DNA of 64,000 bases, taken from assembly GCF_037414475.1 (NCBI RefSeq), contig NZ_CP147913.1:5516001-5580000 (forward strand), written 5' to 3'. The position numbers and the translations under genes were made by a program. Positions 7,608-63,287 of the stretch are shown here, in pieces. Origin of the DNA: Myxococcus stipitatus. Its GTDB lineage: Bacteria; Myxococcota; Myxococcia; Myxococcales; Myxococcaceae. Every line of letters starts with the position of its first letter. The stretch's first letter is position 1. The notes under the pieces were generated by a model, which worked only from the letters and a program-made list of their open reading frames with translations, was not told where the DNA came from and did no database searches.

Positions 7608-7900
7608 AGGTGTACCTCGACGATGAACGTCCGACGCCCGAGGGCTGGATTCCAGCGCGGTGGCCCGAGGATGTCATCGCGCTGCTCGAAGGTGGGCAGG
7701 TGGCCGAGCTGAGCCTCGACCACGACCTGGGAGATGATGAGCACGGCACGGGCTACGACGTGCTGCTGTGGCTCGAGGAGGCCGTGGCCACCCGAGGCTT
7801 CTTGCCCCCACGTCTCCGGGTGCACTCGGCGAACAGCTCCGCGCGGCGGAAGATGGAGCTGGCCATCACTCGCATCGAGCGCTTCGCTCGTGAGGCGTGA
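7604..7900 (+). CDS. Cyclic-phosphate-processing receiver-like protein (cREC_REC)
   Basis: 98 residues. It matches the small receiver-like family with the N-terminal motif KVYLDDERPTP, the central LSLDHDLGDD and the GTGYDVLLWLEE block, ending in RVHSANSSARRKM. Family knowledge: these proteins have a receiver fold with a different set of acidic and histidine residues and were predicted by comparative genomics to act on cyclic phosphate ends of RNA or nucleotides; direct biochemistry is lacking. The start overlaps the stop of the 78-residue protein. Confidence 0.85.
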   Translation: MKVYLDDERPTPEGWIPARWPEDVIALLEGGQVAELSLDHDLGDDEHGTGYDVLLWLEEAVATRGFLPPRLRVHSANSSARRKMELAITRIERFAREA

Positions 7901-7935
7901 CACCTGAGCCGTGAGTCGTATCCACGAGGCCCACG

Positions 7936-8913
7936 TCAACGTGGGCGTGGCTCCACCTGGATGCGTGTCGCCGCGGAGTGACCATCTCCGAAGAGGTTGT
8001 AGGAGGCCTGGACCGAGGTTCCCTCACGCAGGTTCTGGACCTCGATGCGCTTGCCGCCGTGGAGGACCTGGGTGTTCTGCCCGAGGCGCAGGTTGTAGAG
8101 GTCTCCGGTCTCCGCGTCCCGCACCACGATGCGCTGCGGAGACGTGGACGTCACCTGGCCTCGCATGACGACGTTGGCGACCACCGTCTTCGCGGGGTCC
8201 ACCTTCGGAGTGTTGTCCTCGCTGGAGGCACCTGGGCCCGAGCCTCCCGTGCCTCTCGTGTCATTCGTCGCGCCCTTCTGCTTCGAGCTCAGGCCGTTGA
8301 CCTGCCGCTGGAGGCGCAGCACGTCGGAGCGAAGCATCGCGACCTCGCGAGTCAGTTCCTCGGGAGTCTGTTTCTTGCCGGAGGACGCGGCCTCCGCGCT
8401 GCCGCCGTGTGCGTCGCCCATCGAGTCCTGCGGCTCGGTGCCTTGAGGCGTGGCGGGGGCCCTGCCTCCCGCGTCACCGGAGCCTCCCGTCCCCGCGTCC
8501 GAACCGTGGTCGACGCCCGAGCCTCCCATCCCCGCGTCCGCGCCCACGGTGACGCGCGTGTCGGTCATGCCTGTGTTTCCAGTCGAGGCCGCGCCTGGCC
8601 CCGCTCCGCCCGTGCCGGCGTCGTCACTCGAGCCCGAGGCGCGCGTGGCGCCGGTCCCTTGGGCTCCACTGCCGCCCGTGCCTTGCGCGCCGTATGAGCT
8701 GCCCGTGCCTGTCGCCTGGCTGCCCGAGTTGTCCTCCGCTCCCGTCGAGCCTTCCGGAGTCGGGGCGTAGTCCCCCGGCTCGAAGGTGCCCGGGACTTGA
8801 GGATAGCGCCCGCCTTGCTGCGACTGTGTCGAGGCCCCCGGAGACTGGGCGAAGGCGAAGGGCGACGCCAGGACGGTGAACGCCAGGGCCGCGGTGGAGA
8901 GTGCTCGTCGCAT
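7936..8913 (-). CDS. Exported low-complexity protein with coiled coil and DUF5666-like C terminus
   Basis: 325 residues. A signal peptide (MRRALSTAALAFTVLASPFAFA) is followed by ~140 residues of Gly/Ser/Thr/Asp-rich low-complexity sequence with repeated GTGGSG/DAGTGG units. A short coiled coil follows (ELTREVAMLRSDVLRLQRQV, about residues 185-205), then a C-terminal beta domain (VMRGQVTSTSPQRIVVRDAE...) like those in DUF5666-type envelope proteins. It likely sits in the periplasm or envelope. No partner is encoded next to it. Confidence 0.7.
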   Translation of the reverse strand: MRRALSTAALAFTVLASPFAFAQSPGASTQSQQGGRYPQVPGTFEPGDYAPTPEGSTGAEDNSGSQATGTGSSYGAQGTGGSGAQGTGATRASGSSDDAGTGGAGPGAASTGNTGMTDTRVTVGADAGMGGSGVDHGSDAGTGGSGDAGGRAPATPQGTEPQDSMGDAHGGSAEAASSGKKQTPEELTREVAMLRSDVLRLQRQVNGLSSKQKGATNDTRGTGGSGPGASSEDNTPKVDPAKTVVANVVMRGQVTSTSPQRIVVRDAETGDLYNLRLGQNTQVLHGGKRIEVQNLREGTSVQASYNLFGDGHSAATRIQVEPRPR

Positions 8914-9132
8914 GGCGAAGGTCCTTTCCTCGGGCTTGCGCCTTCAAGGTTGAGGCGGTGGGGGCTGGCGACAAGAGGGCCTCGCGGAAGCTCGCGTGCT
9001 CGCTTTCGAGCAAGGGGTGGTGCGAGCGCATCCTCGCGAATCGTGCTGTGCTGGAAGCCGGCCTCGGGGTGGGTGGCTTGAGCGCGGGCCGGGCGCTATG
9101 CCGTGGGCGAGGCAACGTCGCGAGGAGTCACC

Positions 9133-10138: not shown

Positions 10139-10222
10139 GCGAACTCTCAGGAGATTCGGTCGAGCTTGGCCGCCGCGCGACAGCGGTGCGTGGCGCTCAA
10201 ACCGCTCAGAAGGGTTCTTCTC

Positions 10223-17626
<7,404 letters not shown>

Positions 17627-42952: not shown

Positions 42953-43076
42953 CCCCTGACGATAGGAGGGCCGGATTCCGGTCAACCCAAGCGTTGCCCA
43001 CTCCATTCCGGCGCCGGGCATGGCCTCCACCCACGGCCGCCGTGCGGCCGGCCTTCCGCGCCGGACGCCTTCCCAC

Positions 43077-43082
43077 TATAAA
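43077..43082 (+). promoter_or_regulatory. Candidate -10 element for the MglA-like operon
   Basis: TATAAA inside the AT patch CACTATAAAAACC, rare in this GC-rich DNA. The -35 position is weak (TTCCGC). A start site near 43089 would force translation to begin after it, supporting TTG 43147. Confidence 0.35.
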
Positions 43083-43146
43083 AACCCTGTTCGTCCCCGG
43101 AGGGCTGGCCTCCTCTCATCTCGACCCCGCCTGCCCGAGCCACCTC

Positions 43147-43866
43147 TTGCAACTCAACCACGCCCAGCGCGAGCTGACGCTCAAGATCGTCTACTACGGG
43201 CCCGGACTCAGCGGGAAGACGACGAATCTGCGCCATCTGCATGCGCGCGCGTCCCCGGAGGTGCGCGGCCGGCTGTTGACGGTGGAGACCCACGACGACC
43301 GGACGCTGTTCTTCGATCTGCTGCCTGTCTTCTTCTCCACGTCCGCGGGCTTCAAGGTGAAGGTGAAGCTCTTCACCGTTCCGGGCCAGGTCATCCACAA
43401 CGCCACCCGGCGCATCGTGCTCCAGGGCGCGGACGCGGTGGTGTTCATCGCGGACAGCCGGCACAGCGCGACGGCGGAGAACAACGCCTACTGGCGCAAT
43501 CTCCAGGACAACATGAAGGAGAACGGCCTGGACGCCGACCAGGTGCCCGTTGTCATCCAGTTCAACAAGAGGGACCTGCCAGACGCTCGCACGGAGGCGG
43601 AGCTGGAGGCGGCCCGCCAGCGGGGCGGGGAGGTGGTGGTCGGCGCGGTCGCGCTCCGGGGCGAGGGTGTGCTGGAGACCTTCCACGCGGTGGCTCAGGC
43701 CGCCTACCGCCGGCTGGATGCCCGGGCGCACCTGGCGCGCAACGTGGCGCTGACGGAGCAGGAGTTCCTCTCGCAGATTTTCGGACGGATGGACCTGTCC
43801 GGCACCGCGCTGGCCGGGCGCTACTCCGTGACGGGCCGGGATGACCACCAGGGGGGCGGGCGATGA
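43147..43866 (+). CDS. MglA-like small Ras-superfamily GTPase
   Basis: 239 residues from TTG 43147 (no strong ribosome-binding site; chosen because it lies after the promoter-like patch and at the domain start). P-loop GPGLSGKTT (Lys24), switch region VETHDDRTLFFDLLP, FTVPGQVIHNATRRIVLQGADAVVFIADS (MglA-type DxxG replacement VPGQ), and base motif NKRD. MglA sets front-rear polarity for gliding and pili. This paralogue has a C-terminal ~45-residue extension (NVALTEQEFLSQIFGRMDLSG...). The next gene, a histidine kinase, overlaps its stop codon. Confidence 0.88.
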   Translation: MQLNHAQRELTLKIVYYGPGLSGKTTNLRHLHARASPEVRGRLLTVETHDDRTLFFDLLPVFFSTSAGFKVKVKLFTVPGQVIHNATRRIVLQGADAVVFIADSRHSATAENNAYWRNLQDNMKENGLDADQVPVVIQFNKRDLPDARTEAELEAARQRGGEVVVGAVALRGEGVLETFHAVAQAAYRRLDARAHLARNVALTEQEFLSQIFGRMDLSGTALAGRYSVTGRDDHQGGGR

Positions 43867-45368
43867 GCGGGGGCTTCCAGGGGAACGTCCCACCGGAGAA
43901 CTCCCGCCGGGAGTCGGTCCTCCAGCGGCGCCTGACGCTGGGCGAGATGTTGGATGTGCCCTCGTTCGCGGAGGTGGTGAAGAGCTTCAGCGAGCTGTAC
44001 CGCGTGGGCATCAAGGTCCTGGACGCGCGCGGCACCAAGCTGGCCGACGTGAAGGTGGGCCACGGCGACTTCTGCGCGTATGTCTTCTCCTTCCCGGATG
44101 GCCGCTCGCGCTGCACCGCCACGGTCGCCCGGGTGAAGGACGGCCCCGTCGTCCCGGGCCAGGGCGCGCGCCTGGCGCAGGGCGACGGCGCGGAGGAGGC
44201 GGGGCTCATCGCGCTGCCGTGCTTCACCGGCCTGCGCTATCTGGTCATGCCCGTGCGCTGGGAAGGGGACCTGCTGGGCCGGGTCATCCTGGGGCCCTTC
44301 ACCCCCGAGGAGCTGGGTGACTTTCCGGAGACCCTCACGGACATCTCCGGGCTGGAGCTGTCGCGCGCGCAGGAGCTGGTGGCCAAGGTGCGGCGCGCCC
44401 CCGAGCGCACCGCCGCGCAGGTGCTGACGCACTTCGGACAGGTGCTCGCCGCGCTGGTGGCCAGCGGACACCGCACCCACCTGACCACCCAGCTCCACAT
44501 CGAGGCGATGCTGGAGACACACCGCGAACTGGAGGCGCAGAACTCGCGGCTGGCGCAGGTGAACTCCCGCCTCAAGGAGCTGGACCGTCTGAAGTCCACC
44601 TTCCTGGGCACGGTGAGCCACGAGCTGCGCACGCCCCTGGCGTCCATCATCGGCTACTCGGAGATGCTCGCGGAGGGGCTGGCGGGTTCGCTCAACCCGG
44701 AGCAGCTGCTCTACGTGCGCACCATCGTGGAGAAGGGCGAGTCGCTGCTCAACCTCATCTCCTCCATCCTGGACCTGAGCCAGATAGAGGCCGGCCGGCT
44801 GCGTCTGGCCATGGGGCCGGTGGACCTGGCGGGCGTCATCCAGACCGCTGTGTCCAGCGTGATGCCCCAGGCGCAGCGCAAGGGCGTGGAGCTGGAGGTG
44901 CGGCTGCCGCCGGTGCCTCGGCCCCGGCTCGCGGGTGACGCGGACAAGCTGCGTCAGGTGCTGGTGAACCTGTTGGCCAACGCGCTGAAGTTCACCGCGT
45001 CCGGCGGGCGGGTCTCGGTGGTGATGTCGGAGGTGGGCCTCCAGGACACGCTGGGCGCGACGGGCTACCGCGTCTGCGTGGAAGACACGGGCGTGGGCAT
45101 CCGCGAGGACCAGTTCGAGCGCATCTTCCAGAGCTTCTACCAGGTGGACGGCAGCTCCACGCGCGAGCACGGCGGGGCGGGCTTGGGCCTGGCCATCGTC
45201 AAGAGCCTGGTGGAAGGCCATGGCGGAAAGGTGTTCGTGGAGAGCGAGTTCGGGCGCGGCTCGCGTTTCACGGTGGTGCTGCCCATGCAGCCGCCCATCC
45301 CCGAGCACGGCATCGTGACGGCGCCGGCGCCACTGCCGGAGCCGCCAGCGGGTCCGGACCGCTTCTGA
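43863..45368 (+). CDS. PocR-domain sensor histidine kinase
   Basis: 501 residues; ATG overlaps the stop of the GTPase (ATGA). The N-terminal ~160 residues resemble the PocR sensory domain: LGEMLDVPSFAEVVKSFSELYRVGIKVLDARG, conserved cysteines in DFCAYVFSFPDGRSRC and ALPCFTGL. A coiled coil leads to HisKA (His253 in [15 protein letters not shown]) and HATPase (VEDTGVGIRED, AGLGLAIVKSLVEGHGG). No receiver, no membrane segment. PocR domains bind small organic molecules in several regulators. Coupling to a MglA-like GTPase suggests a polarity or motility switch. Confidence 0.88.
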   Translation: MSGGFQGNVPPENSRRESVLQRRLTLGEMLDVPSFAEVVKSFSELYRVGIKVLDARGTKLADVKVGHGDFCAYVFSFPDGRSRCTATVARVKDGPVVPGQGARLAQGDGAEEAGLIALPCFTGLRYLVMPVRWEGDLLGRVILGPFTPEELGDFPETLTDISGLELSRAQELVAKVRRAPERTAAQVLTHFGQVLAALVASGHRTHLTTQLHIEAMLETHRELEAQNSRLAQVNSRLKELDRLKSTFLGTVSHELRTPLASIIGYSEMLAEGLAGSLNPEQLLYVRTIVEKGESLLNLISSILDLSQIEAGRLRLAMGPVDLAGVIQTAVSSVMPQAQRKGVELEVRLPPVPRPRLAGDADKLRQVLVNLLANALKFTASGGRVSVVMSEVGLQDTLGATGYRVCVEDTGVGIREDQFERIFQSFYQVDGSSTREHGGAGLGLAIVKSLVEGHGGKVFVESEFGRGSRFTVVLPMQPPIPEHGIVTAPAPLPEPPAGPDRF

Positions 45369-45430
45369 CGCGAGGTGTCGCCCACGCGAATTCCCCCCGC
45401 GGCGCGCGGGCGGGCGTATTGTCCGCGCTC

Positions 45431-46018
45431 ATGCTGACCGGACGTTCCCCCGCTGCTTCCTACGTGCTCATCGATGCGGAGAACATCGACTGGGCCGTCT
45501 CCAATGTCGTGGGCCGCAAGCCCGAGTCCCAGGACCGCGTGCAGTTCGACCGGCTGGTGGCCTTCTGCGAGAACTACTTCCCCGCGCCCGTGCGCTGCGT
45601 GGTGGTGCTCAACGCGCGAGGTGAGCAGCTGCCCGACGTGATGATTGGCTTCATCCGCGCGCTGAAGTCCGCCGGCTGCGAGGTGGCGTTGCTCTACGGA
45701 CGGCCCGACCAGAAGGTCGTGGACCTGGGCATCCTCAAGCTGCTGGAGACCATCCGCACCCAGCGCCCCAAGGCGGCGGTGGGCCTGGCCAGCCACGACG
45801 GCGCGGACTTCGCCGACGCGCTCAAGCCCATGCTGGAGGAGAAGCGCCAGGTGGCGGTGCTGGGCCTGCGCGAGTACGTCAGCCAGCGCTTCAGGGACTT
45901 GGTGCCCTCGGGCCTGAAGATTGTCGACCTGGAGCTCAACGCGAAGGTGTTCCAGCGTCCGCTGCCCCGGCTGCTGCCGGTCAACGTGGACGAGTTCGAC
46001 CCGACGCAGTTCGTCTGA
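45431..46018 (+). CDS. NYN-domain (PIN-like) putative ribonuclease
   Basis: 195 residues from ATG 45431. NYN/LabA-type fold: YVLIDAENIDWAVS (first acidic site Asp), LVAFCENYFPAPVRCVVVLN, VALLYGRPDQKVVDLGILKLLETI, and LASHDGADFADALKPML (the SHDxDF-type second acidic motif). The family acts as metal-dependent RNA nucleases or RNA-binding proteins. It is a single gene, ending in a perfect 10-bp hairpin shared with the convergent sigma-factor gene. Confidence 0.85.
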   Translation: MLTGRSPAASYVLIDAENIDWAVSNVVGRKPESQDRVQFDRLVAFCENYFPAPVRCVVVLNARGEQLPDVMIGFIRALKSAGCEVALLYGRPDQKVVDLGILKLLETIRTQRPKAAVGLASHDGADFADALKPMLEEKRQVAVLGLREYVSQRFRDLVPSGLKIVDLELNAKVFQRPLPRLLPVNVDEFDPTQFV

Positions 46019-46029
46019 CAGGCCTGGGA

Positions 46030-46054
46030 CGGGCGCGCCGTTATGGCGCGCCCG
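46030..46054. terminator. Hairpin at the NYN/sigma-factor convergence
   Basis: CGGGCGCGCC and GGCGCGCCCG flank a GTTAT loop (perfect 10-bp stem). It begins 12 bases after the NYN stop and overlaps the last codons of the convergent sigma gene. No T-run. Confidence 0.6.
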
Positions 46055-46751
46055 GGTTCCGGCTCATCAACCGCTGGATGCTCAGGTCCAGCTGGCTTCG
46101 GAGCTGGACCAGCAGGCTGTCCAGCTCCGGCACGCTCACCCCCACCCGCGCGGCGAAGCGCACCCGCGTCTGGTCCAGCAGCCACTCGCGGGCGGTGGCC
46201 AGCCAGCGCTTCACCGAGGAGCGGTCCACGCCGTAGGCCTCCGCGATGCGCGCGGTGCCCATTCCGTCCACCAGATGCATTCGCAACAGCGTTCGCGCTC
46301 GTGGCTCCAGCGCGCCCAGCGCCTCCCTGAAGGCGGCGTTGAAGTCCGCGCCGTAGCGCTCCTTCAAGTACTGCAGCTCCACGTCGTCGGGAGCGGTGCC
46401 CAGCGCCTCCAGCGGCCCGTCGTCGGGCAGGTGCGACTCCTTGCGCTCGTTCAACAGCCCCCAGGCCAGCCGGAGCGCGGTCATCCGCAGCCAGGCGGAG
46501 AGCGGGCCCCGGCCGGCGTACTCCATGATGCGGGGTGGCACGGTGCCCTCGGCGACGAGGAAGCGCGCCCGCAGCACCTGGAGCGCCTCGTCCGCCGTCG
46601 TGTCGTCCACGTCCCGGCGCTTCAACGCCGCGCGGACCTGGGGAATGATGCGCTCCTCGAGCGTGGCCAAGGCCGTGGCGTCGCCGCGTGCACATGCACG
46701 GGCGAGCTCCAGGTCCGCTGCATGGACCTCGGTCTCCAGGGGCTTGGCCAT
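46041..46751 (-). CDS. Sigma-70 family RNA polymerase sigma factor, myxobacterial type
   Basis: 236 residues. Region 2 lies around residues 15-100 (ELARACARGDATALATLEER, DDTTADEALQVLRARFLV, GPLSAWLRMTALRLAW) and region 4 around 145-200 (LEPRARTLLRMHLVDGMGTARIAEAYGVDRSSVKRWLATARE). ECF-sized, with the C-terminal extension of a myxobacteria-specific sigma group. The start lies only 26 bp from the start of a divergent kinase gene that has an anti-sigma-type zinc finger, so the pair is probably a sigma/regulator module. Confidence 0.85.
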   Translation of the reverse strand: MAKPLETEVHAADLELARACARGDATALATLEERIIPQVRAALKRRDVDDTTADEALQVLRARFLVAEGTVPPRIMEYAGRGPLSAWLRMTALRLAWGLLNERKESHLPDDGPLEALGTAPDDVELQYLKERYGADFNAAFREALGALEPRARTLLRMHLVDGMGTARIAEAYGVDRSSVKRWLATAREWLLDQTRVRFAARVGVSVPELDSLLVQLRSQLDLSIQRLMSRNPGAP

Positions 46752-46777
46752 TCCCCCGAAGTCTACAGTGAGGGCGC

Positions 46778-49639
46778 ATGCGGTGTCCCACCACGGAGAA
46801 CCTCCTCGCCTTCGGGCGAGGCTTGTTGCGCGGTGACGAGGCCACGGCGCTTCAGGCCCACCTGGATGAATGCCCCTCATGCCGCGTGCTGGTGGCGGAG
46901 GCGGTGGCGTCGGTGGACCCGGGCGCGAGCGAACCCGCGGCGGTGCTCGCCTCCAGCTTCCTGGGGCGTGGCGACGTGCTGGGCCGCTACGTGGTGATGG
47001 AGCGCATCGGCGCCGGGGGCATGGGCGTCGTCTACGCGGCGAAGGACCCGGAGCTCCACCGCAAGGTGGCCCTCAAGATTCTGCGCTTCGACGCCGTCCA
47101 GCCCTCCCGGCTCGCGGAGTCGCAGGCCCGGCTCCTGCGCGAGGCCCAGGCCACCGCGAGGGTCGTCCACCCCAACGTCGTCGCCATCCACGACTTCGGC
47201 CGCGTGGACGAGCGTGTCTTCCTGGCCATGGAGTTCGTCGAGGGCACCACGCTGGGGGCTCGCATGCGTGCGGGGCGCATGCCGTGGCGCGAGGTGCTGG
47301 GCTTGTTCCAGCAAGCGGGCCAGGGGCTCGCCGCCGCGCACGCGGCCGGGTTGGTGCATCGCGACTTCAAGCCGGACAACGTCCTCATCGACACCTCGGG
47401 GCGTGTGCGCATCACCGACTTCGGGCTGGTGCGCATCCTGGATGGCGCCGAGGAGCCCTCCGCGCCGCCCACCTCCGCGCCTCCGGCGTCAGCGGCCGAG
47501 TCCCTCGACTCCCTCACCCAGACGGGGACGCTTTTGGGCACTCCGGGCTACATGGCTCCCGAGCAGTCGCGCGGCGAGCCTCCCGACGCGCGCAGCGACC
47601 AGTTCAGCTTCTGTGTCGCGCTGTACGAAGCGCTCTACGGCGAGCGGCCCTTTCCTCGCGCCGCCGCCGCGGACCTCGCGCTCGCTCAGGCCACGCGCTC
47701 GTCCCGCGCCCACCAGCGCGAGGCCCATGTCCCCGACCGCATCCACCGGGCCGTGTTGAAGGGGCTCTCTCCAGACCGCGCGGACCGTCATTCCTCCATG
47801 GATGAGCTGCTGCGGGCGCTGGGGCAGGAGCCTCGCTTCTCCGCGCACCAGCGCCTCCACGTCGCGGGCATCGCCACCGCATTGCTGGCGTTGGGCGCGG
47901 TCGCCTTCTTCGCCACGCGGCCCAAGCTCTGCGAGGACGACCCGGGGGCGCTCGCGGGTGTCTGGGATGAGAAGACCCGGGCCGCGGTCCATGCCGCGTT
48001 CACGAAGACGGGGCTGCCGTACGCGGCGGACACCTGGCGCGTGGTGAGCACCACCTTGGATGCCTACACGAACGACTGGAGGGGCGCGTCGCGGCACGCG
48101 TGCGAGGCCACGCGCATCCACGGCCGGCAGACCGAAGGCATGTATGAGCGGCAGTTGTTGTGCTTGGACCAACGGCGCAAGGACGTCTCGGCGCTGGTGG
48201 GCGTGCTGTCCTCGGCGGCGGCGCCCGCGGTGCAGAACGCCGTGCGCGCGGTGACGGGGCTGGAGGACCTGAACCGCTGCTTGGACATGCAGGCGCTGAT
48301 GTCCTCGCGCCCGCTGCCCAAGGACCCAGGGGAGCGGCGGAAGCTCGAGTCCCTCCAGAAGGACATCTCCACGGTGCGCGCGCGGCTGCACGCCGGACAG
48401 CCCAAGGCCGCGCTCGAACTGGCCGCCACGCTGCCCGCCCGGATGGAGGGCTTGGACCACCCGCCGACGCGTGTGGAGATGCTCAAGGTGCTCGCCCAGT
48501 CCCAGGTGGAGTCGAATGACAAGGAAGCCATCCAGACGCTGCACAAGCTCATCCAGACCGCTCAGGCGGCGGGGTTGGACTGGCACGTCGCGGATGGCTG
48601 GGTGTCGCTGTTGAGGGTGGCCAGCTACTTCGAGAAGGGCACGGACCCGGAGGGCCAGTACGGCAGCCATGCCACCGCGGCCGTTCAGCGGCTGGGCGGT
48701 GACGCGCCCATGGAGGTCACCCTGGCCACCAACCTCTCCTCCCTCCTGCAGGCCAAGGGCAAGATGCCGGAGGCCGTCGCCGAGGGGATGCGCGCGCTGG
48801 AGCTGGCGCGAAAGACCTATCCTCCCAAGGACGGGCGGCTGTCCACGCCGCTCTTGACCGCGGGACGGATGCTCGGCCTCGCCGGCCGCTTCGAGGAGGC
48901 CGTGGTGCTCCTGCGCGAGGCCCACGAGCGTTACGTCGGGCACTACGGGCCGGCTCACCCGGATGTGGCGGCGGTCCTCAGTCTGCTCGCGGTGCAGGAG
49001 ACCTACCTGAACCGCTACGAGGACGCGGTCGCGCACCAGAAGCAGGTGCTGGCCATCTATGAGGGAGTCTTCGGCGCGGAGTCGGTGAACGTGGCCTCCG
49101 CCCTCCACAACATGGCCAACATGCTCACCCACCTCGGCGGGCGGGAGGAGGAGGCCGTGGCGCTCTTCCGGCGCGCGGTGGCGATTCGGGAGAAGGTCGC
49201 GGGCCCGGAGGATGCTCGCGTCGCCAGCTCCCTGTCCGGTCTGGGCCAGGTGCTGCGCGACATGGGCAGGCCCGGCGAGGCGGTGGCCGTCCACGAGCGC
49301 GCGCTGGCCATCCGCGAGAAGGCCAAGGGTCCCGACTCCCTGGAGGCCGCGTATGACCGGGCCCTGGTGGGCGAGGCGCTCCTGGCCTTGAAGCAGCCTC
49401 GCAAGGCCCGGCCCCTCGTCGAGCGCTCCCTCGCCGTCTACGAGAAGAAGTTCTTCGGCGCCGACGAACTCATCCTCGCCGACATGCGCTTCCTGCTCGC
49501 GCGCACGCTGGTCGATGACCCCCACGAGAAGGCGCGCGCCCTCAAGCTGGCCCGGTCCACGCTGGAGGTCTACCGGCGCTTCCCCAAGGCCCGCGAGAAG
49601 GAGATTCCCCAGGTCGAGACCTGGCTCGCGGCGAGGTGA
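46778..49639 (+). CDS. Ser/Thr protein kinase with N-terminal zinc finger and C-terminal TPRs
   Basis: 953 residues. The N terminus carries Cys3 and His28-x3-Cys32-x2-Cys35 (HLDECPSC), the arrangement of zinc-binding anti-sigma domains. Next a complete Hanks-type kinase (about 70-340): GAGGMGVVYAAKD, catalytic loop HRDFKPDN, DFG, GTPGYMAPEQ. One membrane helix (VAGIATALLALGAVAFFA, ~365-385) is followed by a ~560-residue extracytoplasmic part with many TPR repeats (AVALFRRAVAIREKVAGPEDARVASSL). It fits a membrane receptor kinase that controls the adjacent sigma factor. Confidence 0.9.
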   Translation: MRCPTTENLLAFGRGLLRGDEATALQAHLDECPSCRVLVAEAVASVDPGASEPAAVLASSFLGRGDVLGRYVVMERIGAGGMGVVYAAKDPELHRKVALKILRFDAVQPSRLAESQARLLREAQATARVVHPNVVAIHDFGRVDERVFLAMEFVEGTTLGARMRAGRMPWREVLGLFQQAGQGLAAAHAAGLVHRDFKPDNVLIDTSGRVRITDFGLVRILDGAEEPSAPPTSAPPASAAESLDSLTQTGTLLGTPGYMAPEQSRGEPPDARSDQFSFCVALYEALYGERPFPRAAAADLALAQATRSSRAHQREAHVPDRIHRAVLKGLSPDRADRHSSMDELLRALGQEPRFSAHQRLHVAGIATALLALGAVAFFATRPKLCEDDPGALAGVWDEKTRAAVHAAFTKTGLPYAADTWRVVSTTLDAYTNDWRGASRHACEATRIHGRQTEGMYERQLLCLDQRRKDVSALVGVLSSAAAPAVQNAVRAVTGLEDLNRCLDMQALMSSRPLPKDPGERRKLESLQKDISTVRARLHAGQPKAALELAATLPARMEGLDHPPTRVEMLKVLAQSQVESNDKEAIQTLHKLIQTAQAAGLDWHVADGWVSLLRVASYFEKGTDPEGQYGSHATAAVQRLGGDAPMEVTLATNLSSLLQAKGKMPEAVAEGMRALELARKTYPPKDGRLSTPLLTAGRMLGLAGRFEEAVVLLREAHERYVGHYGPAHPDVAAVLSLLAVQETYLNRYEDAVAHQKQVLAIYEGVFGAESVNVASALHNMANMLTHLGGREEEAVALFRRAVAIREKVAGPEDARVASSLSGLGQVLRDMGRPGEAVAVHERALAIREKAKGPDSLEAAYDRALVGEALLALKQPRKARPLVERSLAVYEKKFFGADELILADMRFLLARTLVDDPHEKARALKLARSTLEVYRRFPKAREKEIPQVETWLAAR

Positions 49640-49749: not shown

Positions 49750-50175
49750 ATGAAGCAGGTTCCAGAAGGTTGTGCGCGCATCACCCCCGGGTTGTTCTAC
49801 GAGAACGCGCCGGCGGCCATCGACTTCCTGGAGCGGGCGTTCGGCTTCCAGACGCGGCTGAAGGTGGAGGGGGCGCCGGGGATGGTGGTGCACTCCGAGC
49901 TGGTGTTCGGGGAGGGCGTCATCATGGTGAGCTCGCTCAGCGCGAAGTTCCCGGGGCGCAAGCCGGGCGCGGCGGGTGGCACCAGCGCGGCGTATGTGAT
50001 GCTCTACGTGGATGACGTGGACGCGCACTGCGCCCAGGCGCGGGCGGCGGGCGCGCGCATCACCCGAGAGCCTTCGACCACGGACTACGGCGAGGACTAC
50101 TGGACGGACCGGGGCTACGGCGCGGAGGACCTGGAAGGCCACGCGTGGTGGTTCGCCCAGCGCATGAAGGGCTGA
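49750..50175 (+). CDS. VOC-fold (glyoxalase/bleomycin-resistance) protein, PhnB-like
   Basis: 141 residues from ATG 49750 with GGGAGG upstream. ITPGLFYENAPAAIDFLERAFGFQTRL, then VHSELVFGEGVIMVSS, AAYVMLYVDDVDAHCAQARAAGARI, and a closing GHAWWFAQ are typical of the YdhR/PhnB-like branch. Such proteins bind small ligands or isomerise/transfer on them with or without a metal. First gene of a three-gene operon with an ArsR repressor and an SRPBCC protein, a common small-molecule-response set. Confidence 0.85.
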   Translation: MKQVPEGCARITPGLFYENAPAAIDFLERAFGFQTRLKVEGAPGMVVHSELVFGEGVIMVSSLSAKFPGRKPGAAGGTSAAYVMLYVDDVDAHCAQARAAGARITREPSTTDYGEDYWTDRGYGAEDLEGHAWWFAQRMKG

Positions 50176-50199
50176 ACCCCAGCCCTGGAAGGACACACC

Positions 50200-50547
50200 A
50201 TGGGAGCCGCCCGTCGTCTCGACGACACCTTCGCCGCCCTGGCCGACCCCACCCGCCGTGGGGTCATCGACCTCTTGCGCGACAAGCCTCGCCGCGCGGG
50301 AGACCTGGCGGCCGCCTTCGACATGTCACCTCCGGCGATGAGCCGGCACCTGAAGGTGCTGCGCAAGACGGGGCTGGTGGAGGAGGAGGCCGTGGAGGAC
50401 GACGCCCGCGTGAAGGTGTACCGGTTGCGGCCCGAGCGCTTCTCGGAACTGCGCGCCTGGCTGGACGAGGTGGAGTCGTACTGGAGCGAGCAGCTCCAGG
50501 CCTTCAAGGCGCACGCGGAGCGCACGCGCGCGAAGAAGCGGCCATGA
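50200..50547 (+). CDS. ArsR-family transcriptional regulator
   Basis: 115 residues. Winged-helix: FAALADPTRRGVIDLLRDKPRRAGDLAAAFDMSPPAMSRHLKVLRKTGLVEEEAVEDDARVKVYRL; the AMSRHLKVL recognition helix is standard. It lacks the metal-binding CxC motif of metalloregulators, so it belongs to the branch that pairs with SRPBCC (AHSA1) genes. It lies 24 bp after the VOC gene and 19 bp before the SRPBCC gene, and likely represses the operon through the palindrome at 49688. Confidence 0.9.
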   Translation: MGAARRLDDTFAALADPTRRGVIDLLRDKPRRAGDLAAAFDMSPPAMSRHLKVLRKTGLVEEEAVEDDARVKVYRLRPERFSELRAWLDEVESYWSEQLQAFKAHAERTRAKKRP

Positions 50548-50566
50548 GCCCCCCGGGAGACACGCC

Positions 50567-51070
50567 ATGACCACCGGACAGAGTGCCCGGGTGACGACCT
50601 TCCTCGCGGTGGAGCCGGACGTGGCCTTCGCCGTCTTCACCGAGGAGACCGACCTCTGGTGGCGCAAGGGGCCGCGCTTCCGGGGCTCCTCCTCGCCCGA
50701 CAGCGTGGTGCGCTTCGAGGGAGGCCCCGGCGGCAGGCTGGTGGAGGAGGACCGCGCGGGTGTCTTCGAGATTGGCCGCGTGCTGACGTGGGAGCCCGGC
50801 GCGCGGCTGCGCTTCGAGTGGCGTGGGCGGAACTTCGCGCCGGGAGAGCTCACCCAGGTGGACGTGCGCTTCGAGCCTGTCCAGGGCGGCACCCGCGTCA
50901 TCCTGGAGCACCGGGGTTGGGAAGCCCTCCGCCCTGACCACCCGGTGCGCCATGGCATGGACCTGGATGCCTTCCTCGGCATGATGGGGATGTGGTGGGG
51001 CGGCCTCATGACCGCGCTGCGCACGGTGAGCTCGAAGTCGACGCCCCGCGTCGATTCGCCACGGAAGTAG
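50567..51070 (+). CDS. SRPBCC (AHSA1-like) domain protein
   Basis: 167 residues. START-like ligand pocket fold: TTFLAVEPDVAFAVFTEETDLWWRKGPRF, VVRFEGGPGGRLVEE, VLTWEPGARLRFEWRG, VDVRFEPVQGGTRVILEHRGWE. Family members bind hydrophobic small molecules or act as chaperone co-activators. Third gene of the ArsR-controlled operon, which is closed by a strong hairpin. Confidence 0.85.
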   Translation: MTTGQSARVTTFLAVEPDVAFAVFTEETDLWWRKGPRFRGSSSPDSVVRFEGGPGGRLVEEDRAGVFEIGRVLTWEPGARLRFEWRGRNFAPGELTQVDVRFEPVQGGTRVILEHRGWEALRPDHPVRHGMDLDAFLGMMGMWWGGLMTALRTVSSKSTPRVDSPRK

Positions 51071-60839: not shown

Positions 60840-63287
60840 ATGACGATGGACATGTCCCGTTACCTGGGCCTCTTCATTTCAGAGGCCACCGAGCACTTGG
60901 AGTCGCTCGGACGGGACCTGGTGCAACTGGAGCGGGAAGGCTCCTCGAGCGCGGTGGACTCGATGTTCCGCCATGCCCACTCGGTGAAGGGCATGGCGTC
61001 GTCGATGGGCTTCGAGTCCATCGCCATCCTCGCGCACCGGGTGGAAGACCTGGTCGATGCCGTGCGGCAGGACCGGGGCCGGTTGGACCGGGACCTGGTG
61101 GACCTGCTGCTGAGCGCCTCGGACACGCTGCTGGCGCAGGTGCGCGCCGTGGCCGAGGGACGCCAGCCCGACGACGCGGCGCTGCTCCTGACGCAGCTGG
61201 GCCAGCGCGTCACCTTGATGACGGGCCACGCGCCGACCGCGACCCGCGTCGCCAAGGTGACCGTGCTCAAGTCCGAGGGTTCCGACGGGAGCGATGGCTC
61301 CTCGGGAACGTCGGGCGGTGGCGATCCTTCAGGTTCGTCGGGCGGAGCGGGTCCGGGCACCACGGGTTCGTCGGGCGGAGCGGGTCCGGGCACCACGGGT
61401 TCGTCGGGTGGCGGCGCAGGATCGGGCTCCACGGGGACCTCGAGTGGTGGTGAGGCATCAGGCTCCACGGGTTCATCGAGCGGTGGCACTCCGTCAGGAC
61501 CGACGGGAGGCGGAGCAGGCTCCGCTGCCTCGAGTGAGCCGAGCGGTAGCGCGACCTCCACGGCAGCCGGAAGCTCCGGTGGAAGCGCGGCGACCTCCGT
61601 CCCGCCCCGGATGACCACGGCGGAAGGCGGCGTGCGAGGCGTACTGGGCATCGGCGCGCCGCCCGCTTCCCCCTCCAACGGCAACGTCTCCACGGGAACG
61701 CCTCCCGCAATCGCGGAGGCCTCATCGAACGATCTCGGCGCGGCGCTCAAGTCGGCCTCGGGTGGCGCGCTCCCCGGGGAACGTGCCGAGGAGGGACGCG
61801 GCTCCACTCAGCGCTGGGCGGTGCGCCTGCGAATCTCCCCCACGTGCCAGGTGCCCGGCGTGCGCGCCTTCCTGGTGCACAAGCGCCTCACCAACCTGGG
61901 CACGCTGGTGGACCTGCGGCCCGCGCTGGAGGAGCTGAAGGCGGGCCGCATCCCGGACGGCTACATCCAGGCGGAGCTGGAGACGTCCGTGGGCGAGGCG
62001 GGCATCCACGCGTCGCTGAAGAACGTGGCGGAGGTCGATGTCGTCTCCGTGAAGCCCGCGGTGGCCGCTCCGGTCCCCGCCGTTGTCCCCTCCGCGACGG
62101 GGGAGGGGGGCCGCGCGACGGGAGACTCCTCCTCGCGCACGGTCCGCGTGCGCACGGAGCTGCTGGACTACTTCCTCGACACGGTGGGCGAGCTGATGCT
62201 CGCCACGGCGCGCCTGCGTGAAGTGGGCAAGGTGCTGCCGGAGACCGTGCGCCCCGCGCTGGAGGAGGGGGTCTACCGGCTGCATACGCTGGTGAAGGAC
62301 CTGCACGACAAGGTGATGACCGCGCGCATGACGCCGCTGTCGCTCATCACCGACCGCCTGCCACGCGCGGCCCGGGACATCGCCCGGCGCAAGGAGCGCG
62401 AGGTCGACCTGGTCATCACGGGCGCGGAAATCGAGCTCGACCGCGCCATCCTCGACGAGCTGTCCGACCCGCTGCTGCACCTGCTGCGCAACTGCATCGA
62501 CCACGGCCTGGAGTCCCCCGACGAGCGCGTCGCCGCGAAGAAGGGCCCGCGCGGGCGCGTGCTCGTGGCCGTCAAGCGCGCCAGGGACCGCGTCATCATC
62601 GAACTGGAAGACGACGGCCGGGGCATGAACGCCACGAAGCTGAAGACCGCGGCGATATCGCGCGGACTTCTGACGCCGGAGCTCGCCGCGCGCATGACGG
62701 ACCGCGAGGCCTTCATGCTCTCGTGCCTGCCGGGCGTGTCCACGGCGAAGGACGTGACGGATATCTCCGGCCGCGGCGTGGGCATGGACGCCGTCAAGCG
62801 CGTGGTGGAGAGCGTGGGTGGCACGCTCGAAATCGACAGCGAGCCGGGCCGAGGCACCCGCTTCACCCTGCGGCTCCCGCTGACGGTGGCCGTGGTGCAC
62901 CTGCTGCTGGTGGAGGTGGGCGAGGAGGTCTTCGGCCTGCCCATCGCCAAGGTGGTGGGCGCCACGGAAGCGGACAGCGAGGCGCTCAGCCGCAGCCGCG
63001 AGACGGCGCTGTTGCCCCACGGCAGCTCGCTGTTGCCCGTGCATGCGTTGGACACGCTCGTCGGGGTGCCGGCGCCGGGGCTGCGGGGTGTGCGTCCCTT
63101 CGTGGTGATGGAGGGTGACTCCGGACGGGTGGCGTTGGGTGTGGACCGGCTGCTCGGGCAGGAGGAAGTGGTGCTCAAGCCGCTGTCGCGGCCGCTGGAT
63201 TTGCTGCCGGGGCTCTCCGGAGTGACCATCCTGGGTAGCGGCCGTCCGGTCTTCATCCTGGATGTGCCGAGGTTACTGTCCGCGTGA
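60840..63287 (+). CDS. difE: CheA-type histidine kinase, DifE-type
   Basis: 815 residues. P1 Hpt with His47 in RHAHSVKGMASSMGF; a ~180-residue Gly/Ser/Thr-rich linker (about 140-310) that includes two 33-bp DNA repeats; a central acidic/regulatory region; P3 dimerisation and P4 ATPase (LLRNCIDHGLESPDER, VIIELEDDGRGM, DISGRGVGMDAVKRVVESVGG); P5 CheW-like (AVVHLLLVEVGEEVFGLPIAKVVG). There is no P2 CheY-binding domain of the usual sort. It phosphorylates CheY-type regulators on input from DifA/DifC. The stop overlaps the start of the CheC gene. Confidence 0.92.
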   Translation: MTMDMSRYLGLFISEATEHLESLGRDLVQLEREGSSSAVDSMFRHAHSVKGMASSMGFESIAILAHRVEDLVDAVRQDRGRLDRDLVDLLLSASDTLLAQVRAVAEGRQPDDAALLLTQLGQRVTLMTGHAPTATRVAKVTVLKSEGSDGSDGSSGTSGGGDPSGSSGGAGPGTTGSSGGAGPGTTGSSGGGAGSGSTGTSSGGEASGSTGSSSGGTPSGPTGGGAGSAASSEPSGSATSTAAGSSGGSAATSVPPRMTTAEGGVRGVLGIGAPPASPSNGNVSTGTPPAIAEASSNDLGAALKSASGGALPGERAEEGRGSTQRWAVRLRISPTCQVPGVRAFLVHKRLTNLGTLVDLRPALEELKAGRIPDGYIQAELETSVGEAGIHASLKNVAEVDVVSVKPAVAAPVPAVVPSATGEGGRATGDSSSRTVRVRTELLDYFLDTVGELMLATARLREVGKVLPETVRPALEEGVYRLHTLVKDLHDKVMTARMTPLSLITDRLPRAARDIARRKEREVDLVITGAEIELDRAILDELSDPLLHLLRNCIDHGLESPDERVAAKKGPRGRVLVAVKRARDRVIIELEDDGRGMNATKLKTAAISRGLLTPELAARMTDREAFMLSCLPGVSTAKDVTDISGRGVGMDAVKRVVESVGGTLEIDSEPGRGTRFTLRLPLTVAVVHLLLVEVGEEVFGLPIAKVVGATEADSEALSRSRETALLPHGSSLLPVHALDTLVGVPAPGLRGVRPFVVMEGDSGRVALGVDRLLGQEEVVLKPLSRPLDLLPGLSGVTILGSGRPVFILDVPRLLSA
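61332..61397 (+). repeat. Two 33-bp tandem repeats in the difE linker
   Basis: GGTTCGTCGGGCGGAGCGGG followed by 13 more bases repeats exactly (61332-61364 and 61365-61397) and starts again partially at 61398. It encodes GSSGGAGPGTT units of the flexible linker; length may vary between strains. Confidence 0.8.

Follow-up and report, generated by a model that had tools for sequence, protein, structure and literature searches.

Does a myxobacterial receptor kinase hold the sigma factor encoded beside it and let it go upon a signal from outside? The question is raised by a locus in a 64,000-nucleotide stretch of the Myxococcus stipitatus genome (contig NZ_CP147913.1, positions 5,516,001 to 5,580,000; referred to as the window, in whose own numbering positions are given), in which the gene for a 953-residue kinase diverges from that of an extracytoplasmic function (ECF)-type sigma factor. 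A sequence-only reading of this DNA had proposed that one protein may both hold the sigma factor and signal from outside. We consider it about an even proposition that the kinase acts as an anti-sigma receptor kinase, docking this sigma factor with an N-terminal ZAS domain and freeing or activating it through kinase activity. The elements of this proposal that were computed here are the domain identities, the zinc-ligand set, the genetic linkage, the co-variation, and the acidic region 2.2 of the sigma factor.

The kinase and its N-terminal domain

46778 to 49639, + strand: receptor kinase with N-terminal ZAS domain, 953 residues (stop codon within the coordinates)
46778 to 46912, + strand: ZAS domain, kinase residues 1 to 45, three helices, ligands C3, H28, C32, and C35 (Pfam, profile, model, and alignment)
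46913 to 46972, + strand: linker, residues 46 to 65, predicted to be disordered, with no helix 4 predicted (model and orthologue comparison)
46988 to 47794, + strand: Hanks-type kinase domain, residues 71 to 339 (PF00069, Pkinase, 138.9 bits, plus motifs)
47861 to 47920, + strand: single predicted membrane helix, residues ~362 to 381 (Kyte-Doolittle maximum, 2.12)
47921 to 49636, + strand: C-terminal sensor half with tetratricopeptide repeats (TPRs), presumably periplasmic (TPR_12, 201.1 bits, 7 stretches)

According to the sequence-only reading, the kinase begins with a ZAS layout, Cys3 followed by His-x3-Cys-x2-Cys, ahead of the kinase domain, the membrane helix, and the TPRs. This description was borne out. 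The protein, which starts with MRCPTTENLLAFGRGLLRGDEATALQAHLDECPSC, carries C3, H28, C32, and C35, and its residues 8 to 36 match PF13490 (zf-HC2) with 25.4 bits (cut-off, 22.2). As judged from its catalytic motifs (GAGGMGVV, VALK, and HRDFKPDN), one membrane helix called from hydropathy only, and a C-terminal sensor of presumed extracytoplasmic location, it is a Hanks-type receptor kinase. In the NCBIfam comparison, all 23 rows for the kinase were under their cut-offs, with the RsrA and ChrR models far below theirs. The kinase also matched 31 PADLOC families, the best 25 matches being mostly to PD-T4-6 or other kinase models on the kinase domain, and nothing in them by itself points to a defence role.

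Conservation of the zinc ligands, on which the sequence-only reading had staked its proposal, was found. Of 99 aligned ZAS domains, 93 use Cys and 6 use His as the first ligand, and the other three ligands are invariant since H-x3-C-x2-C was the selection criterion; kinases without the ligands are present at three loci (see below). The Cys is located exactly 25 residues ahead of the His in 93 of 103 motif-bearing kinases, and the last Cys is separated from the kinase domain by a median of 30 residues (range, 16 to 65). Searching PDB sequences with a profile of the 99 domains retrieved RslA (E value, 1.9e-7), DdvA (9.6e-5), a second DdvA-like entry (0.0036), ChrR (0.0036 and 0.0039), and RsiW (0.22), the seventh and last row being a ferritin (0.17).

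The predicted model of kinase residues 1 to 66 contains helices at residues 6 to 13, 19 to 31, and 33 to 45, followed by a disordered tail. In a Foldseek search with this model, RslA, DdvA, ChrR, and RsiW made up the top 12 of 28 rows, all with E values above 1, and no match was found at E ≤ 0.001. The VIA comparison gave Z scores of 7.9 for ChrR (root mean square deviation [rmsd], 4.0 over 57 residues), 6.3 for RslA (6.8 over 58), 5.4 for RsiW (7.4 over 65), and 3.3 for DdvA (7.4 over 57), with 2.5 for the sole unrelated row, on a scale where values below 8, or below ~13 for helical bundles, may reflect a common arrangement only. The ligand set, the predicted three-helix bundle, and the encoding together with a sigma factor support the assignment of the N-terminal domain to the ZAS class I type.

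ChrR, RslA, and RsiW, which are ZAS class I anti-sigma factors, likewise combine Cys or His with a following H-x3-C-x2-C and a three-helix bundle. RsrA is a further member of this class. Unlike in ChrR, RslA, and RsiW, the ZAS domain of the window is fused to a Ser/Thr kinase, and helix 4 is not predicted. An N-terminal zf-HC2 is also found on kinases of Planctomycetes. In class I anti-sigma factors, helix 1 touches sigma region 4 and helix 4 touches region 2, according to a review (PMC7406223). In the kinase, the linker has block values of the predicted local distance difference test (pLDDT) of 51 and 53 across residues 51 to 66 of the model. Its conservation is weak among six orthologues, with identity at 18 of 40 first and second positions for codons 40 to 60, compared to 35 of 40 for codons 0 to 20 and 31 of 40 for codons 20 to 40. 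Helix 4 might fold upon binding. Because it is not predicted, “dock” is a safer word than “inhibit” for the action of the ZAS domain.

The sigma factor and the divergent start codons

46041 to 46751, − strand: TIGR03001 (Sig-70_gmx1) ECF-type sigma factor, 236 residues, 234.6 bits versus a cut-off of 154.6 (stop codon within the coordinates)
46587 to 46598, − strand: sigma residues 52 to 55 (TADE), at the place of the region 2.2 DAED motif, with Thr51 just before (alignment to AlgU)
46044 to 46142, − strand: C-terminal extension past region 4, sigma residues 204 to 236, with two helices (H207-214 and H218-231) modeled at modest confidence (block pLDDT, 87 down to 48)
46752 to 46777, no strand: 26-bp gap between the divergent start codons, with 15 of the 26 bases invariant across six orthologues

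The AlphaFold2 (AF2) model of the sigma factor matches ECF sigma factors, among them SigK (4nqw) over both domains with a Z score of 10.4 (rmsd, 16.0 over 147 residues), region 2 of E. coli sigmaE (4lup) with 10.1 (2.5 over 90), and region 4 of SigL (3hug_C) with 8.3 (3.7 over 77). Ser occupies column 212 in 94 of 97 members of the family alignment. At the DAED motif, all 97 members are acidic at the fourth position and 81 at the third, where just 3 have Ser or Thr; the corresponding acids of the protein encoded in the window are D54 and E55. Since the acids are kept at both positions, the sigma factor looks ready for the polymerase, which fits a partner that restrains it. In contrast, the acidic 2.2 motif is absent from ECF43 sigma factors, which phosphorylation activates; EcfP has Thr and Ala at the third and fourth positions and requires phosphorylation (PMC8999054). 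Residues D54 and E55 set the window's sigma factor apart from the ECF43 type, in which acidic residues of region 2.2 are replaced by uncharged ones, and activation of the EcfP type at that exact site is unlikely because region 2.2 is acidic.

The sigma start is, as the sequence-only reading stated, 26 bp away on the other strand, and both the length of the gap and the two starts are kept in 6 of 6 orthologues, including that of the window. Counting the genome of the window itself, such close sigma orthologues (E ≤ 1e-90) were found in 6 of the 27 genomes from the genus. The reading had added that control elements must overlap the coding ends. This part follows from the 26-bp gap itself; the elements did not emerge from the searches, since no sigma-70-type promoter was found in positions 46400 to 47200 and conservation gave a weak signal. 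Third-codon-position identity in the six orthologues was 13 of 20 for sigma codons 20 to 40 and 9 of 20, 7 of 20, 8 of 20, and 9 of 18 for the four other sigma blocks compared, a local rise too weak to claim an overlapping element. Rfam gave no match within the window at the gathering threshold.

Linkage and co-variation of the two partners

Of 117 genomes sampled from the phylum, 56 contained TIGR03001 sigma genes (E ≤ 1e-25). The surroundings of 113 of these genes were read; they were hand-chosen, mostly from the same family, with close orthologues included, and are neither random nor independent. This survey of sigma and kinase neighbours, which the sequence-only reading had called for, came out in favor of linkage, with a kinase in the fetched stretch for 106 of the 113 sigma genes and H-x3-C-x2-C immediately ahead of the kinase domain in 103 of the 106. 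The kinase gene was found upstream (38), downstream (33), divergent (30), or convergent (5) relative to the sigma gene. At 8 of the 33 downstream loci, the first ligand codon starts 3 nucleotides past the last base of the sigma stop codon, so that a start two codons earlier would overlap that stop. Outside the window's own family, 12 of 15 loci have a motif-bearing kinase; among the other three, L064 has kinases devoid of the motif, the stretch read for L054 contains no kinase, and L057 reaches the contig end. The HRD motif is retained in 105 of the 106 kinases and a membrane-like stretch in 92. The conserved core consists of ZAS domain, kinase, and sigma factor, and the sensor half is variable.

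Scanning of the far end in 10 of the 106 kinases revealed TPRs in five, T2SS-T3SS_pil_N in L010 and L051, and nothing further in L011. The far end of the ZAS-kinase consists of nSTAND1 plus FGE-sulfatase in L090 (996 to 4913, − strand) and of WD40 repeats in L052 (1018 to 5109, − strand), in both cases in place of TPRs.

Against the ZAS profile, the motif-less kinases of L085 and L089 scored 10.0 and 12.7 bits, respectively. At L064, the nearest kinase was below zero and a second one reached 17.2 bits. None of 17 control kinases scored above 1.1 bits.

The genome of the window has six TIGR03001 sigma genes above the cut-off, of which five adjoin a ZAS-kinase, one of these having two in a row. 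Among the best 30 of 107 own-genome matches to kinase residues 1 to 223, 8 carry H-x3-C-x2-C ahead of the kinase domain and the other 22 lack it there, a sample that leans toward ZAS carriers because the query included the ZAS domain. Six of these eight ZAS-kinases are beside or within ~2 kb of five of the six TIGR03001 genes. The neighbourhood of ZAS-kinase and sigma genes in this genome is not due to chance. The ZAS profile itself retrieved the 8 ZAS-kinases and two other proteins among the 10 of 11 own-genome matches listed. The two others are open frames of 597 and 102 residues that start 81 and 136 nucleotides, respectively, after sigma matches below the cut-off, and neither is among the 107 kinase matches.

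Distance matrices from 98 pairs correlated at 0.782 for ZAS domain and sigma factor, 0.641 for ZAS domain and the kinase domain of the same chain, and 0.756 for sigma factor and kinase. The difference between the first two is 0.137 (bootstrap 95% interval, 0.082 to 0.203). The ZAS sequence is better correlated with that of the sigma factor than with that of the kinase domain in the same protein. Re-pairing the partners within genomes, 23 of 48 of which had two or more pairs, gave a ZAS-sigma correlation of 0.226 (standard deviation, 0.045) with a maximum of 0.392 in 1000 tries. The ZAS domain leans to sigma region 4 (0.754 versus 0.697 for region 2) and the kinase to region 2 (0.719 versus 0.690). 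The difference of these differences is 0.083 (95% interval, 0.016 to 0.154), or 0.062 (0.002 to 0.130) with the kinase N-lobe alone, in a contrast whose regions were picked after the first results and whose bootstrap ignores the tree.

Residue-level covariation was computed as mutual information with average product correction (APC) on the 98 pairs, with an effective number of ~50. Mean information above within-cluster shuffles was seen for the ZAS columns (0.3678 versus 0.3583; standard deviation, 0.0015) and likewise for the kinase columns (0.3665 versus 0.3630; 0.0011). Enrichment of region 4 among the strongest pairs was considered and discarded as unconvincing, 27 of the top 60 pairs being located there with 80 of 234 columns.

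Other genes were noted around these loci and elsewhere in the window. An Arf/small-GTPase-like protein, a PocR-domain histidine kinase, and an NYN-domain protein are encoded in series (42994 to 46018, + strand), convergent with the sigma gene. Past the kinase gene, a glyoxalase, an ArsR-type regulator, and an AHSA1 protein follow in series (49750 to 51070, + strand). Farther away are a 2,486-residue hybrid histidine kinase with 14 HAMP stretches, GAF, HisKA, HATPase, and 3 receiver stretches (10166 to 17626, + strand) and a CheA-like protein with Hpt, P2, H-kinase_dim, HATPase, and CheW domains (60840 to 63287, + strand). At the surveyed locus L009 (5231 to 8345, − strand), a calcineurin-like phosphoesterase gene lies just downstream of the kinase-less TIGR03001 gene on the same strand and is followed by the gene of an AHH nuclease-domain protein. 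At L130, the gene of another, different ECF sigma factor, which has a C-terminal zf-HC2 fusion (7889 to 8971, − strand), is located ~1.6 kb from the kinase-less TIGR03001 gene.

Proposed mechanism and its rivals

In the mechanism that we propose, the ZAS domain of the membrane kinase would serve as a dock for the adjacent TIGR03001 sigma factor, with region 4 as the most likely contact, and retention at the membrane would keep the docked sigma factor from RNA polymerase. A signal sensed by the TPR half on the outer side of the membrane would turn the kinase on. Phosphorylation of the ZAS domain or linker, or of the docked sigma factor, would then free or activate the sigma factor. Binding, inhibition, membrane topology, the signal, and phosphorylation as the switch are the parts that we infer. 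A single protein that holds the sigma factor while also signaling from outside appears to be the best reading of the sequences, and the interpretation first put forward for this locus is partly supported: the identity of the ZAS domain (ligand set, anti-sigma factors as best matches, linkage, and co-variation) speaks for it, and the helix that would contact sigma region 2 is not predicted.

Several observations weigh against this proposal. Helix 4 is missing from the model computed for kinase residues 1 to 66 alone. Distance correlation can stem from shared descent, and 28 kinase blocks of ZAS length correlated with the sigma factor at 0.447 to 0.778, one of them nearly matching the ZAS domain. 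Residue-level covariation yielded no standout ZAS-sigma pair. Two own-genome ZAS-kinases (L155, 5062 to 8382, + strand, and L156, 3180 to 6266, − strand) have no TIGR03001 gene in the fetched stretch. Conversely, among the 113 sigma genes, four that are located away from contig ends (L009, L054, L067, and L130) had no kinase in the stretch; three more (L057, L078, and L083) sit near a contig end, bringing the total to 7 of 113. Pfam zf-HC2 attains its cut-off in just 4 of 10 related kinases (L008, L010, L012, and L096). It is under the cut-off in L051 and L058, absent at an E value of 0.001 in L011, L090, and L103, and not among the best 25 of 45 rows for L052. Finally, Thr51 and Thr52 adjoin the acids of the window's sigma factor, and Ser or Thr near this motif may be kinase targets in other groups (PMC8999054).

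This last point and the lack of a predicted helix 4 also fit docking for activation only, in which the ZAS domain would present the sigma factor to the kinase and the sigma factor would stay inactive until phosphorylated, never being inhibited by the ZAS domain. We regard this alternative as rather unlikely. The closest precedents are PknS-EcfK and PknT-EcfP of group ECF43, where a kinase gene is likewise beside an ECF sigma gene and EcfP and EcfK are activated via phosphorylation by the adjacent kinase; PknS, which pairs with EcfK, resembles the window's kinase in having an N-terminal segment, one membrane helix, and TPRs (PMC8999054 and PMC13147305). One review regards Ser/Thr in or around the motif as possible kinase targets in other groups (PMC8999054), and Thr51 and Thr52 directly flank the acidic pair. 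However, such flanking sites are not a trait of the family, since 16 of 97 members carry Thr at column 52 and 26 carry Ser or Thr at column 51, and region 2.2 is already acidic, at the frequencies given above. By analogy with T106 of EcfK, phosphorylation at a linker site may nonetheless be compatible with docking for activation only.

A redox or metal switch like RsrA or ChrR, with the zinc site sensing thiol stress in the cytoplasm and releasing the sigma factor and with a secondary role for the kinase, is improbable. It would draw on the complete ligand set, with a Cys or His mostly 25 residues before the His of H-x3-C-x2-C, and on ChrR and RslA being among the nearest solved relatives; ligand-less versions nevertheless adjoin the same sigma family, and a purely cytoplasmic redox switch would need neither the HRD motif nor the membrane-like stretch that nearly all or most of the 106 kinases keep. 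Improbable too is a reading in which the zinc domain serves the kinase as a general folding or dimerization module with no sigma contact, the genes being merely co-inherited neighbours. It would suit the two own-genome ZAS-kinases lacking a TIGR03001 neighbour but not a ZAS domain that correlates better with the sigma factor than with the adjoining kinase domain, has anti-sigma factors as top structural and sequence matches, and is encoded near the sigma gene in four layouts.

The proposal of an anti-sigma receptor kinase has relatives among known systems. DdvA of Myxococcus xanthus (PDB 8rlz and apparently also 8rot), the second-best sequence match, carries an N-terminal ZAS domain on a myxobacterial membrane anti-sigma factor. 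Unlike the window's kinase, 8rot (991 residues) is titled as a CHAT domain-containing protein and not as a kinase. The partner of DdvA, DdvS, is an ECF sigma factor freed upon DdvA inactivation (PMC4374960). The combination of anti-sigma factor and kinase is also met outside myxobacteria. RsbW is a GHKL-type kinase and not a Hanks kinase with a ZAS domain. This protein of Bacillus subtilis is likewise anti-sigma factor and protein kinase in one, as a review describes (PMC7406223). Six ECF groups (ECF43, 59, 61, 62, 217, and 283) are listed as kinase linked in PMC8999054, and two reviews handle anti-sigma factors and sigma-phosphorylating kinases as separate ECF controls (PMC8999054 and PMC8103513). 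No description of a ZAS-kinase fusion was found in the literature searched, which left out most subscription papers and the ECF classification, and no mention of TIGR03001 was found in that mostly open-access literature.

More broadly, and with somewhat less than an even chance in our estimate, the ZAS-kinases may form a large myxobacterial class in which sigma region 4 is gripped by a ZAS domain of three helices, the kinase domain occupies the position from which helix 4 of an ordinary anti-sigma factor would block region 2, phosphorylation opens the complex, and the sensor end (TPR, WD40, STAND type, or none) is exchanged often. Repeated exchange of the sensor end would thereby give each sigma factor its own input. 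The proposed anti-sigma receptor kinase would bring parts of both control modes, the anti-sigma factor and the sigma-directed kinase, together in one protein next to a sigma family present in nearly half of the genomes sampled. The ZAS domain at the start of the kinase and the usual presence of such a kinase beside related sigma genes point to a class of sensors from which an outside signal would release a bound transcription factor. If this is true, a group of myxobacterial kinases would gain a direct target, with predictions that are testable in laboratory myxobacteria.

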